Below are positions 15,855-20,908 of a stretch of DNA of 20,948 nt, piece by piece (within the stretch, counting starts at the first letter, position 1; the number at the start of each line of letters is the position of its first letter). The stretch covers positions 1-20,948 of IMG/VR virus record IMGVR_UViG_3300020034_000074; one strand, given 5' to 3'. This DNA is from a virus. The notes beneath the pieces were generated by a model. It was not told the origin of the DNA. It saw nothing but the letters and a program-made list of their open reading frames with translations, and did no database searches. A program made the position numbers and the translations under genes.

Positions 15855-17585
15855 CTAGATGATGTGCAAGCTCGGCTGCGCGGCGTTGTCGAGGTAGCGC
15901 CCTATCGCCATGATCAGCGCGCACATGCCATCGATGCGCCCGGTCGACTGCGCCTTGTGTGGCATTTCGTTGAGATTTTTGTCGCGCTGCACTTTCAAAT
16001 TCGACGCCATCACCCGCAGCACCGGATTATCGCCGTGGTCGAGGCGACGCCCTGCCAGCAGCGCGCCCAACTCCTTCGTCGGCTCGCTGTACGACCTCGA
16101 GCCCTGAATAAACTCCGCCATGTTGACGCCGTGGCTCTGACACTCGACGGACATCTGGGTCGCGTTCCACGGGTCGAACCCGATCGATCGGATGTTGAGG
16201 CGCTTGGCGTCGGCCAGGACGGCGTCGCGGATCACGCCGTGATCGATGACGTTGCCGGGCGTGCTTTCGATCCAGCCCTCGTCGACCCACTGGCGATACG
16301 GCATGCGGTCGCGGTCGGCGCGCTCCTCGATGGTGTCGCTCGGCATCCAGAAACGACAGGCGATGTGGTGGATGCCGGCCGCGTCGGCGGCGTAGAGCTT
16401 CACATAAGCCGAAATGTCGATCTTGCTGCTGATGTCGAGGCCGCCCCACACGTCGCAGCGGTCGAGCTTGTCAGGATCGAACGGGCCGCGGCTGTTTTCC
16501 GCCCACTGATCCATGTCGATTGCGCGCTCGGTCATCGGCGAGCGCACGTTCAGCCGCAGTCGCTTGAACGCCGCCAGCGCACCGGGCGAGCGTGACGCCT
16601 TGGCGGCCTGCCGTTCGAGGTCGTCGAGCTTCACCGATATGCCGATGTTGGGATTGGCTTTCGCCCACGCGATGGGATCGTCCCACTTGTCGTCCTTGTC
16701 GATGGTGGCGATGAACGCAAAGCAGGCGTCATCGATCACCGTGCCTTCCAGCACCTTCACGGCGTAGTCGTTCTCCTGGCTGTAGACGCTCTCCGGGTCG
16801 TCATCGCCCGCCGTCGTGATGATCCACAGCAGCGGTTGCCGGCGAGCGCCGAGCGCAGTGTCGAGCACGTCGAGCAGCGCGCGCGTCCGATGGCGGTGCA
16901 ATTCGTCGATCAGCACGCAATGGGGATTGAGACCGTCGAGCGTGCGACTGTCCGACGACAGCGGCTCGAATTTCGATGACGTATGCTCGACGTTGAGGTT
17001 GAGCTTGAACCGGGCCACGGCGTTGCGCAGCGTCGGCGACGCCGCCACCATGCGCTTCGCCTCGTCGAAAATAATCCGCGCCTGTTCGCGCTTCGTGGCC
17101 GCCGCGTAGACTTCGCCGCCGGGCTCGCCGTCACACACCAGCATGTCGAGCCCGACGCCCGCCAGCTTGGTCGACTTGCCATTTTTGCGCGGCACTTCCT
17201 CGTAGACCCAGCGGAAGCGTCGCGTGCCATCGGCGCGCTTCCAGCCGAACACGCTGCCGATTGAAAACTTTTGCCAGCCCGACAGGTGCACCGGCTTGCC
17301 GCCCCACTCGCCTTTCGAGTGGCGCAGGAAGCGCGGATAGAACCCGATGCGATGTTGAGCCGCTCGACGATCCCACTTCAAGCCGCGCGCGGGCCCCTCG
17401 ATCAGGTCGCGCAAGTGTCGCTCACAAGCGAGCTTGATATAGCGACACGCGACGATCTCTCCCGAGACAACCGCACGCGCCCAAGCTGTCACTTCGTCTT
17501 GTCCCGCGCGCTCTGCTGCGCTCGGTTTTGCGCTCCCGTAAGCCGGCGTGCGTTTTAAGTGCGACACTTTGCGGCGTGGTTTCAT
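15855..17585 (-). CDS. terL: Terminase large subunit, HK97 type (Terminase_1)
   Basis: A 576-residue packaging motor with ATPase and nuclease domains. The ATPase region has a divergent Walker A, EEVPRKNGKSTK at residues 129-140, and a Walker B CVLIDELH at 223-230 with the acidic pair; ITTAGDDD (256-263) fits the coupling motif. The C-terminal RNase-H-like nuclease has Asp384 in GGLDISSKIDI and Asp471 in GFDPWNATQ, as expected for metal ligands. The N-terminus (WARAVVSGEIVACRYIKLACERHLRDL) matches the usual start of this family. No clear ribosome-binding site precedes the ATG; a start a few residues later is possible. It lies downstream of the small subunit but is separated from it by a plus-strand histone-like gene. 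Confidence 0.95.
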   Translation of the reverse strand: MKPRRKVSHLKRTPAYGSAKPSAAERAGQDEVTAWARAVVSGEIVACRYIKLACERHLRDLIEGPARGLKWDRRAAQHRIGFYPRFLRHSKGEWGGKPVHLSGWQKFSIGSVFGWKRADGTRRFRWVYEEVPRKNGKSTKLAGVGLDMLVCDGEPGGEVYAAATKREQARIIFDEAKRMVAASPTLRNAVARFKLNLNVEHTSSKFEPLSSDSRTLDGLNPHCVLIDELHRHRTRALLDVLDTALGARRQPLLWIITTAGDDDPESVYSQENDYAVKVLEGTVIDDACFAFIATIDKDDKWDDPIAWAKANPNIGISVKLDDLERQAAKASRSPGALAAFKRLRLNVRSPMTERAIDMDQWAENSRGPFDPDKLDRCDVWGGLDISSKIDISAYVKLYAADAAGIHHIACRFWMPSDTIEERADRDRMPYRQWVDEGWIESTPGNVIDHGVIRDAVLADAKRLNIRSIGFDPWNATQMSVECQSHGVNMAEFIQGSRSYSEPTKELGALLAGRRLDHGDNPVLRVMASNLKVQRDKNLNEMPHKAQSTGRIDGMCALIMAIGRYLDNAAQPSLHII

Positions 17586-17611: not shown

Positions 17612-17634
17612 CCTCTCCTAGATTGAGTGCTCGT

Positions 17635-17648
17635 CAACGCGCTGTTGC
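17635..17648 (+). promoter_or_regulatory. 14-bp shared element, copy 2, within an inverted repeat
   Basis: CAACGCGCTGTTGC, matching copy 3 at 12 of 14 positions. It lies inside a wider inverted repeat: TCAACGC (17634-17640) and GCGTTGA (17647-17653) separated by 6 bases. The start at 17677 is 28 bases downstream. An operator or 5' leader hairpin role is equally possible. Confidence 0.4.
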
Positions 17649-17676
17649 GTTGATTAACACCCAAGAGGAACTACAA

Positions 17677-18042
17677 ATGGCTACGAAGACTGACACGACG
17701 AAGACCGCTCCCGTTGCCCCCGTTGCTGCTGCCCCCAAGGCCGCAGTGAAGAAAGCCGCCAAGAAAGTCGCGACGAAGAAGGCCGCAGCAAAGCGCGCAC
17801 CCCGCGCGAAGCCCGATCCGAAAGTCGTGGCCGAAGCTGTCGCGCTGCTCAAGACGAAGAAGGGCGCGACTTACGCCGAGATCGCTGCAGCGCTCAAGCT
17901 CAAGTCTAAGGGTGACAAGCCGCATCAGTCACCCGCAGCGCAAGTCCGCGCGCTTGTGCGTGATCGGGTGCGCATCGCGCACGAGATCACAGACGGCGAC
18001 TATGATGCCGAGCGCGGCGGTCAAGTCTATCTGATCAAGTAA
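17677..18042 (+). CDS. Histone H1-like Lys/Ala-rich DNA-binding protein, plus-strand moron
   Basis: A 121-residue protein with start MATKTDTTKTAPVAPV chosen by the GAGG sequence at 17665-17668. Residues 1-47 form a disordered Lys/Ala/Pro tail with repeated AAKK/KKAA blocks (AVKKAAKKVATKKAAAKR), as in bacterial H1-like proteins. Residues 48-121 look like a compact winged-helix/HTH-type domain (VVAEAVALLKTKKGATYAEIAAALKL then AQVRALVRDRVRIAHEI) ending with a strand-like GGQVYLIK. The gene sits between the two terminase subunits on the opposite strand and ends at its own terminator, so it is an independent transcription unit. Its likely role is binding host or phage DNA, perhaps as a nucleoid-type silencer, packaging helper or transcription modulator. 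The fold and role are inferred. Confidence 0.78.
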   Translation: MATKTDTTKTAPVAPVAAAPKAAVKKAAKKVATKKAAAKRAPRAKPDPKVVAEAVALLKTKKGATYAEIAAALKLKSKGDKPHQSPAAQVRALVRDRVRIAHEITDGDYDAERGGQVYLIK

Positions 18043-18141: not shown

Positions 18142-18639
18142 TCAGTTGAGCTTGTCGGGCTTCTCGTCGAGATAGGCCGCGAGATCGCCCGAGATCAGCG
18201 AGCCCCGAGGCCCGATGTCCCCGTGCGGGGCTGCTGCCCCCAGATGCGCGCGCGCTGCTGGCGAGAACCCGATCTCGCCGCACGTGCGCAAGATGATCTG
18301 CGCTTGCGCGTTCATCACTCGCATATAGGGGTTGATCCCGACGCTGCCGTCCGAGCGCTGCACGACTTGCCCCAAGCGGGCGACTTCGCGCGCTGCCCTG
18401 CGGTGCTCGACGTTCGCCAGACACCACACGATCATCACATCGCGATCAGTCCCCGATAGCAGCCCCATCGGCGCATGGTCGACCGCGTAGCGCCACGCCG
18501 CGCGTTGCTCGTCATCGAAATCATCCGGGCAGGCCCAGAGATCGCCGACGCCGGGCGGCTCGTCGGGGATCGGCCGATGTGCCGGATTGCCGCGCAACTT
18601 CACAAGCGCTGCTGGTGTATTCGGTTTGGTTCGTGCCAT
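18142..18639 (-). CDS. terS: Terminase small subunit, P27 family
   Basis: A 165-residue DNA-recognition subunit that selects the packaging site and loads the large subunit. The start MARTKPNTPAALVKLRGNPAHRPIPDEP is the classic P27/Terminase_4 beginning, in which 'kLrGNPgkRplp..EP' is conserved. It continues with DFDDEQRAAWRYAVDH (helix), GLLSGTDRDVMIVWCLA and a helical region ending FSPAARAHLG, the usual C-terminal block before a variable tail. It is preceded by a GAGGGGG-type ribosome-binding site. The opposite-strand element at 18655 lies 15 bases before its ATG, so it may be divergently regulated with the ASCH gene. It would normally be adjacent to the large subunit, but the histone-like gene separates them. 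Confidence 0.93.
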   Translation of the reverse strand: MARTKPNTPAALVKLRGNPAHRPIPDEPPGVGDLWACPDDFDDEQRAAWRYAVDHAPMGLLSGTDRDVMIVWCLANVEHRRAAREVARLGQVVQRSDGSVGINPYMRVMNAQAQIILRTCGEIGFSPAARAHLGAAAPHGDIGPRGSLISGDLAAYLDEKPDKLN

Positions 18640-18654
18640 TGTCCCGCCCCCTCA

Positions 18655-18668
18655 CAACGTGGTGTTGC
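18655..18668 (+). promoter_or_regulatory. 14-bp shared element, copy 3
   Basis: CAACGTGGTGTTGC, ending only 5 bases before the start at 18674 and 15 bases from the divergent small-terminase start. It is followed by CAACG, so the CAACG motif is repeated either side of a GTTGCCAAC dyad. The position overlaps where a ribosome-binding site would be, which would suit a leaderless transcript or an operator over initiation. Confidence 0.4.
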
Positions 18669-18673
18669 CAACG

Positions 18674-18985
18674 ATGGACAAGACGCCCCCTCTTTTCGTG
18701 CCACTCCGTGCAGAATATTTCCGCGCCTTCGCAGAGGGCAGCAAGACCGTCGAGTGGCGCAAATTCGGCCCGCGCTTCAACGATAAGACGCTCTATCGCG
18801 GCCGCTCCATCACGCTGTCCAACGGCTACTCGGGCGCTCGCCTCTATGGTCGCATCACGGCGCTTGAGCTTAAGCCGGCCGAGGCGGTGCCCCATGCCGG
18901 GACGATTTACAAGCCGAAGGACTTGTTGGTCGGCATTCACGTCAAGTTGATCTCGCTCAAGCCGCAGCCTCCGCAGCGCTCGTGA
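18674..18985 (+). CDS. ASCH/PUA-like domain protein, plus-strand moron
   Basis: A 103-residue protein starting MDKTPPLFVPLRAEYFRAF. The 'PLFVPLRAEYFRAFAEGSKTVEWRKFG' opening with a KTVEWR motif at 24-29 and the 'RSITLSNGYSGARLYGRI' strand pair match ASCH/PUA-like domains, which bind RNA or nucleotides and are common in phage and prophage accessory regions. The shorter start is chosen because it matches the family; a longer in-frame extension lies over the small-terminase gene. No ribosome-binding site is seen. Its 3' end overlaps the convergent ABC-GNAT gene by 29 bases. ASCH proteins may sense modified nucleobases or RNA; the specific role here is unknown. Confidence 0.78.
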   Translation: MDKTPPLFVPLRAEYFRAFAEGSKTVEWRKFGPRFNDKTLYRGRSITLSNGYSGARLYGRITALELKPAEAVPHAGTIYKPKDLLVGIHVKLISLKPQPPQRS

Positions 18986-20084
18986 GCCCGGCCGCCGCCG
19001 CCTCGTCTTTCGTCGAGGCTTCGCCGCAGTAGGAAAACACCGCGTTGGGCCGGCCGCCCATCGTGCCGCCCTGGCCGAGCGCCGAGCGCGACACGTTGCC
19101 CTTGAGGCCCGGCTTGCTTTCGAGCTTCCACACTGTCGAGTGATCGAAGGATCGGATCAGCGCCGGGTGCGCCGGGTATGTGCGCAATTCGAGCCCGGCC
19201 GCGCGATAGAGCCCGCCCAGCTTGTCGACCAGCGCGAGCGCGAGGCCAAGTCCCTGCCAATCGGGCAGCGTGACGAGGCGAGACACGCCCTTGATGTCGT
19301 GTCGCGCTCGGTGCGGCCGATGCAGCACGCCAGCGAACGCGGTCGGGCGCCCCTCGACGAACAAGCACCAGCAGGCCGCCGAGCGGTGGAGCTCGCGCGT
19401 CAGATAGTGAAACGGAGCGAATAGGTCCCACGTGCGGATGCCGACGCGCCGTAACTCGACCGCCACGGCTGGTCGTCGTTGAACCGACCTCCATTGGAAA
19501 GTCATCGTCGCCGGCTCAAGCACCCAATCGGGCTGCAGCCATTCGACGATGTCGTAGTGGCACGACGCCGCCACGAATTGCTTGCCGTTGCGCCGCACGG
19601 CTTTCTGGACGGCGTGCGCGCCGATCTGCGCGACTTGCCTGTCCACGACGCTGGTGAACTCGTCGACGACAATCGTGCCTTCGATCTCGAGGATGCGCCG
19701 CGCAAGGTCGACGCGGAACTGTTCGCCATTCGACAGCACGGCGTGCGGCCTGAGCCACGCCGGGATCGTGTTGAAGCCCACGGCCTGACATGCGGCGGCG
19801 ATCTCCCTCATGGCGAGCGTGTTGTCGAAGTCGTCGACCACGCTCGGCTTGCCCCAGATCAGCGACGGCATTGCGCCGAATATGCTGCGCAGGATCGTCG
19901 ACTTGCCCGAGCCCGATGGCCCGACGATCAGGCCGACCGACCAATCACGCTCGTCTATCGGCAACTCGCCCTTCCATGTGAGCCGCACCGCTTCGGCGGA
20001 CGGCACATCGAACATCGCCTCAAGCTGGCGAGCGCGCGCCGACTGCGAAAGTTGGCTTTCGACCGCGAGATCGATGCTCGGCAT
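18957..20084 (-). CDS. ABC-type ATPase fused to GNAT-like acetyltransferase domain
   Basis: A 375-residue fusion. The N-terminal half is a stand-alone ABC ATPase: Walker A GPSGSGKST at 55-63, signature-like LSNGEQFRVDLAR at 117-129, Walker B TIVVDEF at 137-143 followed by a D-loop region (TSVVDR), and an H-loop His at 176 (ASCHYDI). It has no membrane segments, so it is not a transporter. The C-terminal half (about 205-375) has a GNAT-like arrangement with ACWCLFVEGRPTAFAG and an acetyl-CoA-loop-like region WQGLGLALALVDKLGGL near 276-292. This matches proteins annotated as ABC-type ATPase fused to a predicted acetyltransferase. The gene starts one base after the stop of the Acb2-like gene and lies downstream of the ParB-like gene. 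A role in DNA/base modification, as in Mom-like systems with a GNAT fold, is a reasonable inference but unproven. Confidence 0.82.
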   Translation of the reverse strand: MPSIDLAVESQLSQSARARQLEAMFDVPSAEAVRLTWKGELPIDERDWSVGLIVGPSGSGKSTILRSIFGAMPSLIWGKPSVVDDFDNTLAMREIAAACQAVGFNTIPAWLRPHAVLSNGEQFRVDLARRILEIEGTIVVDEFTSVVDRQVAQIGAHAVQKAVRRNGKQFVAASCHYDIVEWLQPDWVLEPATMTFQWRSVQRRPAVAVELRRVGIRTWDLFAPFHYLTRELHRSAACWCLFVEGRPTAFAGVLHRPHRARHDIKGVSRLVTLPDWQGLGLALALVDKLGGLYRAAGLELRTYPAHPALIRSFDHSTVWKLESKPGLKGNVSRSALGQGGTMGGRPNAVFSYCGEASTKDEAAAAGLTSAAEAAA

Positions 20085-20085
20085 T

Positions 20086-20283
20086 TCAGTCGCCTTTCCA
20101 GATCAGCGCACGAACGGCGCAGTCCTTGGCCTCCAAGAGCTTGCGCAACGCCACGGTGCGCTCGGGATTGCGCGGCAGCGTGTCGACGATGATTGTCGCC
20201 AGCGCGTGGAACTGGATCGACACGTCCTGCAGCTTGGGCGGCAGGTGCGCGTATTCAAAGAACTGCAGCATGGGATCGCTCAT
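20086..20283 (-). CDS. Acb2/Tad1-like small protein (putative cyclic-nucleotide sponge)
   Basis: A 65-residue protein preceded by GGAGAG at good spacing. It has a short start (MLQFFEYAHLPPKLQDVS), a helix (FHALATIIVDTLP) and a terminal helix with PERTVALRKLLEAKDCAVRAL. This pattern, a short loop then two helices with an 'R..AL.KL.EA...A..A' motif, is the Acb2/Tad1 hairpin family. Characterised Acb2/Tad1 members bind cyclic di- or tri-nucleotides or gcADPR-type signals and thereby block CBASS or Thoeris defence. The gene is sandwiched between ParB-like and ABC-GNAT genes. The family call is by motif; ligand specificity and activity are inference. The normal conserved ligand residues cannot be verified without an alignment. 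Confidence 0.7.
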   Translation of the reverse strand: MSDPMLQFFEYAHLPPKLQDVSIQFHALATIIVDTLPRNPERTVALRKLLEAKDCAVRALIWKGD

Positions 20284-20296
20284 CGTCCGCTCTCCA

Positions 20297-20908
20297 TCAC
20301 GAGATCAATGCTCGACATCGCAGTCCATCCCGTTCGAGACGTTCAAGCACCTCGCGTTGATGTTGCTCCGACGTGCACGTGATCAGCACCGAATAGCCGA
20401 GACCATCGCCCAACTGCATCGAACTGTCGCCGGCCGACGTGGCTCTGCGCAGCGCCTGCTCGACCGATTTCTTTTCGAAGCCAATCGACTTGAGATCAAC
20501 GCCCAGCTTCTGCAGCGAGCCGATTTCCAGCGCCAGCAGGTTCTTATCCCACGCGCTCAAGTCGTGCAGCCGATTGTCGGCGATCAGGAAGCCACGCTTG
20601 TCCTCGTCCGACCAGTTGACCGTCACAGCCACGGGCACCTGGCCCATGCCGACCTTGAGCGCCGCTTGCACCGCGCCGTGCCCGGCGATGATCGTGTCGT
20701 CCTCATCGATCAGCACCGGCTTGGCGAAGCCGAACTGTTCCAGCGACGCCGCCAGCATGTCGATTTGGCGCGCGGTGTGCCGCCGGGAATTTTTTGGATG
20801 GGCTTTCAACACCGCCGGGTCGCGCATTTCCCCGGTGCGCACCCACGGCTCGTCGCCGTGCTCGGGCAGCGCGGGCTTGGCGGCAACGCGGCGCGGCTTC
20901 GAAGTCAT
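20297..20908 (-). CDS. ParB/Srx-like nuclease-fold protein
   Basis: A 203-residue protein starting MTSKPRRVAAKPALPEHG, preceded by GGAG about 10 bases upstream. The ParB/Srx core spans about 25-125: LKAHPKNSRRHTARQIDMLAASLEQFGFAKPVLID, the diagnostic IIAGHGAVQAALKVG (73-87) and FLIADNRLHDLSAWD (107-121). A C-terminal segment (GYSVLITCTSEQHQREVLERLERDGLRCRALIS) is shared by phage ParB-like proteins of this type. Phage members of this fold have been linked to nuclease, CTPase or DNA-modification-associated roles; they are not plasmid-partition proteins, and no ParA gene or parS site is visible here. It is the first gene of a tight cassette (13 bases before the next gene). No gene is visible in the 40 bases upstream. 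Confidence 0.85.
   Translation of the reverse strand: MTSKPRRVAAKPALPEHGDEPWVRTGEMRDPAVLKAHPKNSRRHTARQIDMLAASLEQFGFAKPVLIDEDDTIIAGHGAVQAALKVGMGQVPVAVTVNWSDEDKRGFLIADNRLHDLSAWDKNLLALEIGSLQKLGVDLKSIGFEKKSVEQALRRATSAGDSSMQLGDGLGYSVLITCTSEQHQREVLERLERDGLRCRALIS

Follow-up and report, generated by a model that had tools for sequence, protein, structure and literature searches.

P0002, a protein of 65 residues encoded on a viral genome fragment, is with high confidence a distant homologue of the Acb2/Tad1 hairpin, and its family is a separate, very widespread subfamily that carries no name in existing libraries. The most likely reading, to which we give a probability of about one half on the combined analysis, is that P0002 is a stand-alone homologue of the hairpin that would act in a sponge-like manner on a small nucleotide signal that is not 3'3'-cGAMP. 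Acb2/Tad1-type sponges decide phage survival against CBASS and Thoeris; the P0002 family has at least 593 copies in IMG/VR, labelled merely 'hypothetical' in sequence libraries, and if it is a family of sponges it would rank among the commoner counter-defence genes.

The window (the whole stretch of DNA analysed, a 20,948-bp IMG/VR virus fragment) carries the P0002 gene on the minus strand at 20086-20283, from an ATG at 20283-20281 to a stop codon at 20086. The translated product (MSDPMLQFFEYAHLPPKLQDVSIQFHALATIIVDTLPRNPERTVALRKLLEAKDCAVRALIWKGD) belongs to the family described by PHROG 1761 and PHROG 5120. A Shine-Dalgarno sequence, GGAGAG, can be read at 20295-20290 of the minus strand, with a 6-nt spacer to the ATG. 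This Shine-Dalgarno sequence, the tight spacing to both neighbouring genes, and the hundreds of homologues confirm that the open reading frame is real and not a chance one. The initial annotation had the coordinates and the protein right and left out the strand; the N-terminus and the C-terminal string that it quoted agree exactly with the translation.

P0002 is the middle gene of an operon. Upstream (20297-20908, minus strand) is the gene for a ParB-like protein of 203 residues, whose stop lies 13 nt ahead of the P0002 start; the protein matches phrog_620 at 1.7e-39, phrog_498 (N-terminal part of a DNA methyltransferase) at 1.1e-34, and PF02195 (ParB_N) at 0.0044, below the cut-off. Downstream (18957-20084, minus strand), with an ATG 1 nt past the P0002 stop, is the gene for a 375-residue fusion of an ABC-type ATPase (PF00005, 5e-7) and a GNAT acetyltransferase (PF00583, 2e-5), which matches phrog_11143, labelled as of unknown function, at 7e-96. 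Since relatives of this fusion adjoin DNA methylases in Streptococcus phages, the two flanking genes are possibly a DNA-modification cassette, and such a context would be weakly consistent with a counter-defence role for P0002. The wider context is an HK97-type morphogenesis module comprising the large terminase subunit (TerL), portal, prohead protease, capsid, and tape measure genes. TerL (15855-17585, minus strand; PF20441 at 2e-43, PF03354 at 6e-36) is 41-42% identical to the TerL proteins of Marinobacter AS1 and mEp235, and the small subunit (TerS) is encoded at 18142-18639 on the minus strand (PF05119, 3.4e-11). Two further open reading frames lie on the plus strand, opposite to the late genes: one at 18587-18985 encodes a 132-residue protein with an ASCH-type-like reading (LFVPLRAEYFRAFAEGSKTVEWRKFGPRF...), for which Pfam gave no match at E<=0.1 and PDB sequences gave chance matches only, and the other, at 17623-18042 between TerL and TerS, encodes a protein of 139 residues, rich in Ala and Lys and resembling histone H1, which has a C-terminal segment and no Pfam match.

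Relatives of P0002 are found in at least 593-596 contigs or stretches of IMG/VR, in 315 named phage records (E<=1e-3), in 65 GTDB genome contigs from many phyla, and in 24 plasmid records; they include phages of alphaproteobacteria, vibrios, Acinetobacter, actinobacteria, and Bacteroidota, as well as jumbo phages; Gordonia phage DumpsterDude and Vibrio phage martha 12B12 are two of the carriers. Nearly all are annotated as 'hypothetical protein', and a few bear names acquired by chance, 'anti-TRAP' and 'occludin homology' among them. P0002 itself matches PHROG 1761 at 2.7e-26 and PHROG 5120 at 1.1e-18, both labelled 'unknown function', and both profiles are matched by every one of the 118 diverse members from which the conservation, profiles, and column counts given here were derived. 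A search of the literature on newly described sponges yielded no known name for the family. No neighbour is conserved, at most seven of about 150 loci sharing a gene family within five genes, and with its scattered positions the gene behaves like a mobile accessory gene.

Homology to the Acb2/Tad1 hairpin emerges from remote comparisons. PF24729 (Acb2_Tad1_hairpin; cut-off 27 bits), the curated family into which the initial annotation would have placed the protein, matches P0002 nowhere even at E<=10, a result that, taken alone, speaks against that proposal. The same model matches only five of the 118 family members, weakly (best E 0.037), fewer than the 11 matched by the unrelated helical model Occludin_ELL, and direct Pfam and NCBIfam scans of P0002 and its family gave no usable match. 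The link is instead made by PHROG 1454, whose profile detects typical PF24729 proteins, among them a prophage protein (L178; 8.5e-24) and a phage protein that is a PF24729 member above the cut-off (L082; 4.2e-11). PHROG 1454 matches P0002 at E=2.7e-4 and 108 of the 118 members (best 2.2e-5); each other PHROG outside the family is matched by at most 10. T4 Acb2 (Vs.4), which has been established as a sponge by experiment and belongs to PF24729 (7e-20), matches PHROG 1454 at 7.1e-4, so P0002 and T4 Acb2 lie at about equal distances from the family core.

Profile-profile comparison by hhalign supports the same relationship. Against the TFEYL subfamily of PF24729 (16 sequences) the P0002 family scores 33.6 (P 4e-6), compared with 15.9 for the reversed control, 20.0 for the highest of 100 column-shuffled controls, and 27.7 for Acb2-like sequences against the same subfamily as a yardstick. 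The score against a pool of 27 sequences is 32.7, with one of 100 pool shuffles aberrant at 131.9; the comparison with five Tad1/FSYHPP-type sequences is marginal (P 0.007), and for five Acb2-like sequences taken by themselves significance is not reached (P 0.14). The P0002-family profile, searched against complete genomes of phages encoding PF24729 proteins, recovered those proteins in two of the genomes (E 0.004 and 0.009). An N-terminal aromatic residue and the pattern LP..P[DE][RK]T..LRKL[RL]E are common to the P0002 family and PF24729 proteins. The motif 'R..AL.KL.EA...A..A', on which the first suggestion of kinship was based, does align with the final helix of T4 Acb2 (LTIAKTKLKEASMWACRAV), with 9 of 19 residues identical over TVALRKLLEAKDCAVRALI. 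What survives of the Acb2/Tad1-like assignment is thus remote homology and a shared fold, as seen with PHROG 1454, the profile-profile comparisons, AlphaFold2, and a viral fold search; membership in curated PF24729 does not. At residue level, P0002 departs from the known family in two features, and it is not filed in PF24729. As the P0002 family demonstrates, the Pfam model does not cover the whole Acb2/Tad1 superfamily.

The predicted fold is that of the hairpin. An AlphaFold2 monomer built on the 118-sequence alignment (pLDDT 96.2, pTM 0.82) has helices at residues 4-9, 16-35, and 40-61, that is, a short N-terminal helix followed by two long antiparallel helices, without an N-terminal beta domain. 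The published Acb2 protomer consists of a short N-terminal helix and two antiparallel helices (PMC10419184, PMC12043709), and the modelled P0002 protomer matches it. In a search of viral folds (BFVD), members of the P0002 family are among ranks 1-6, and 12 of the top 40 matches bear the name 'Acb2/Tad1 hairpin domain-containing' (ranks 7, 10, 12-16, 18, 20, 29, 38, and 40), a raw, unnormalised count; the best of these hairpins aligns at TM 0.78/0.78, with probabilities up to 1.00. Foldseek against the PDB, for which a hairpin of 65 residues makes a poor query, returned nothing significant and no Acb2/Tad1 chain at E<=10, and phmmer and sequence-profile searches of PDB sequences likewise returned no Acb2/Tad1 chain and only chance helical matches.

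The residues of the putative binding site were mapped in a merged alignment of the 118 P0002-family members with 26 PF24729 members. In T4 Acb2, the Y8A variant is binding-deficient and T68M lowers binding affinity (PMC12657230). Tyr8 corresponds to Tyr11 of P0002, a position that is Tyr, Phe, or Trp in 110 of the 118 members, and Thr68 corresponds to Arg47, invariant in 118/118; in PF24729 members this position is Arg in 16 and Thr in 10. Lys23 of helix 2, which is Lys or Arg in 26/26 PF24729 members, corresponds to Ser22 (115/118), a register with which hhalign agrees. Its equivalent in Pseudomonas phage Acb2, Lys26, presumably contacts cGAMP. Met75-Trp76 on the last helix (Met in 26/26 and Trp in 25/26 PF24729 members) is replaced by Asp54 followed by Cys or Ala at position 55 in all 118. 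The earlier suggestion that the ligand range may differ from that of known members is strengthened by these replacements of residues near-invariant in PF24729. Judged from the alignment, the site looks rewired, yet it is strongly conserved: 11 residues (F9, H13, L14, E41, R47, E51, K53, D54, A56, V57, and R58) are invariant in 118/118, and four of them, R47, E51, D54, and R58, occupy positions i, i+4, i+7, i+11 and would therefore form a single polar stripe on the last helix.

According to the preferred reading, P0002, which was modelled as a monomer alone, would assemble as an oligomer, probably a hexamer, as do Acb2 and Tad1; the oligomer would hold, between its protomers, a small immune signal of nucleotide type, and with the signal captured the host effector would not be triggered. 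Given the differences in the pocket, binding of 3'3'-cGAMP in the manner of Acb2 is improbable. Sponges are themselves sensed by Panoptes (PMC12657218, PMC12657230). A broader proposal is that the P0002 family is a second major branch of hairpin sponges, spread across diverse phages, that binds a nucleotide immune signal outside the Acb2/Tad1 range and possibly undescribed; this proposal is speculative and, on balance, unlikely. Should P0002 be a sponge, its rewired and highly conserved pocket would suggest a signal in wide use among bacteria and missed by the known sponges.

The main competitor to the sponge-like reading, a substantial minority possibility, accepts Acb2/Tad1 ancestry and fold and assigns P0002 a non-sponge function, as a small adaptor, a regulator, or the binder of a constant cellular target; the stripe R47-E51-D54-R58 would then touch the target or seal the oligomer. 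Invariance of 11 residues over very diverse phages suggests a fixed partner and is unusual for an arms-race protein, so it counts against a sponge. The loss of residues near-invariant in PF24729 acts in the same direction and is the reason why the sponge claim is made at reduced strength. Family members in which the hairpin is fused behind other N-terminal segments, zinc-ribbon-like (L191) or beta-rich (L101, L145) among them, also fit an adaptor or regulator; a zinc-ribbon-like N-terminal domain is present in the member from Ochrobactrum phage OH. Against such a function are the scattered, accessory distribution of the gene, with no fixed partner gene, and the conservation of the positions equivalent to Tyr8 and Thr68. 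To our knowledge, all characterised relatives of the Acb2/Tad1 hairpin fold are nucleotide sponges, and this precedent favours the sponge-like reading.

The reading of P0002 as a standard Acb2 that binds the customary ligands (3'3'-cGAMP, cA3, and relatives) is improbable. Fold, remote homology, and the retained Tyr8 equivalent are in its favour, but the helix-2 Lys/Arg has become Ser22, Met-Trp has become Asp-Cys/Ala, and the comparison with Acb2-like sequences alone falls short of significance; the differences at residues near-invariant in PF24729 were the ground for demoting it. Least credible is an unrelated amphipathic helical hairpin that resembles Acb2 by convergence, a disfavoured explanation to which the weak matching of short helical proteins to many helical models (as with Occludin_ELL and 11 members) and the lack of any match to solved structures by PDB sequence profile or Foldseek lend something, but which is opposed by PHROG 1454 being the sole outside family matched by most members, by an hhalign score above the reversed and all 100 shuffled controls, by the concentration of fold matches on Acb2/Tad1 hairpins, and by the N-terminal aromatic residue and loop-helix pattern held in common with PF24729 proteins.

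Among known proteins, the TFEYL subfamily of PF24729 (L082, L151-L170; PHROG 1454), with which the profile-profile match is significant, is among the closest to P0002: both are helical hairpins with an N-terminal F.Y, a loop LP.GPDKT followed by LRKLRE, and Arg at the Thr68 position. PF24729 members have the helix-2 Arg, Met-Trp, and a VAITREADG.PR tail, whereas the P0002 family has Ser and Asp-Cys/Ala and lacks the tail. Acb2 (T4 Vs.4, PDB 7UQ2; Pseudomonas phage p26, PDB 8H2J/8IXZ) shares with P0002 the short N-terminal helix and two antiparallel helices, a C-terminal helix of the form T.A..KL.EA...A.RA, and the ligand-contacting Tyr. It differs in length (88-93 residues compared with 65, the inter-helix loop being much shorter in P0002) and at Lys23 (Ser22 in P0002), Thr68 (Arg47), and Met75-Trp76 (Asp54-Cys55), and no pairwise or PDB profile match between the two is significant. 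Tad1 (PDB 7UAV, 8KBE) carries the PF24729 hairpin at its C-terminus behind an antiparallel beta-sheet domain that P0002 lacks; some members of the P0002 family likewise have a beta-rich domain ahead of the hairpin (L101/L208, L254, L204). A Tad1-like architecture for these fused relatives was considered and set aside, the model being of low confidence (pTM 0.48) and showing no match to Tad1. Synteny with T4 acb2 (vs.4) was also rejected, since in the T4-like phages ZZ1 and phiAS5 the position differs.

Co-occurrence of the P0002 family with PF24729 proteins over the cut-off, at 2 of 50 IMG/VR records and 0 of 10 named phages, indicates neither enrichment nor clear exclusion, and in Alphaproteobacteria genomes the two are about equally prevalent (5 and 3 of 385, respectively, the 5 including the search centre). 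In one phage (L082, 1092-1692; L008/L009), a P0002 homologue and an authentic PF24729 protein are encoded within three genes of one another, immediately behind the gene for the major capsid protein. The sequence SHKVV.AAKI...YPDGYISW.P.KAFEE.Y (PHROG 9467/872/11049) marks a small beta-type domain seen at L145, L204, L089, and L008 (gene +1); in some phages it is fused ahead of the hairpin, and in others it is a separate gene just downstream. Two members of the P0002 family (L229 and L278, around 1001-1228) have a tip-loop insertion between helices 2 and 3, for example GEMPEGTAVQFPLPRNPERT, at the place where the long loop of T4 Acb2 stands.
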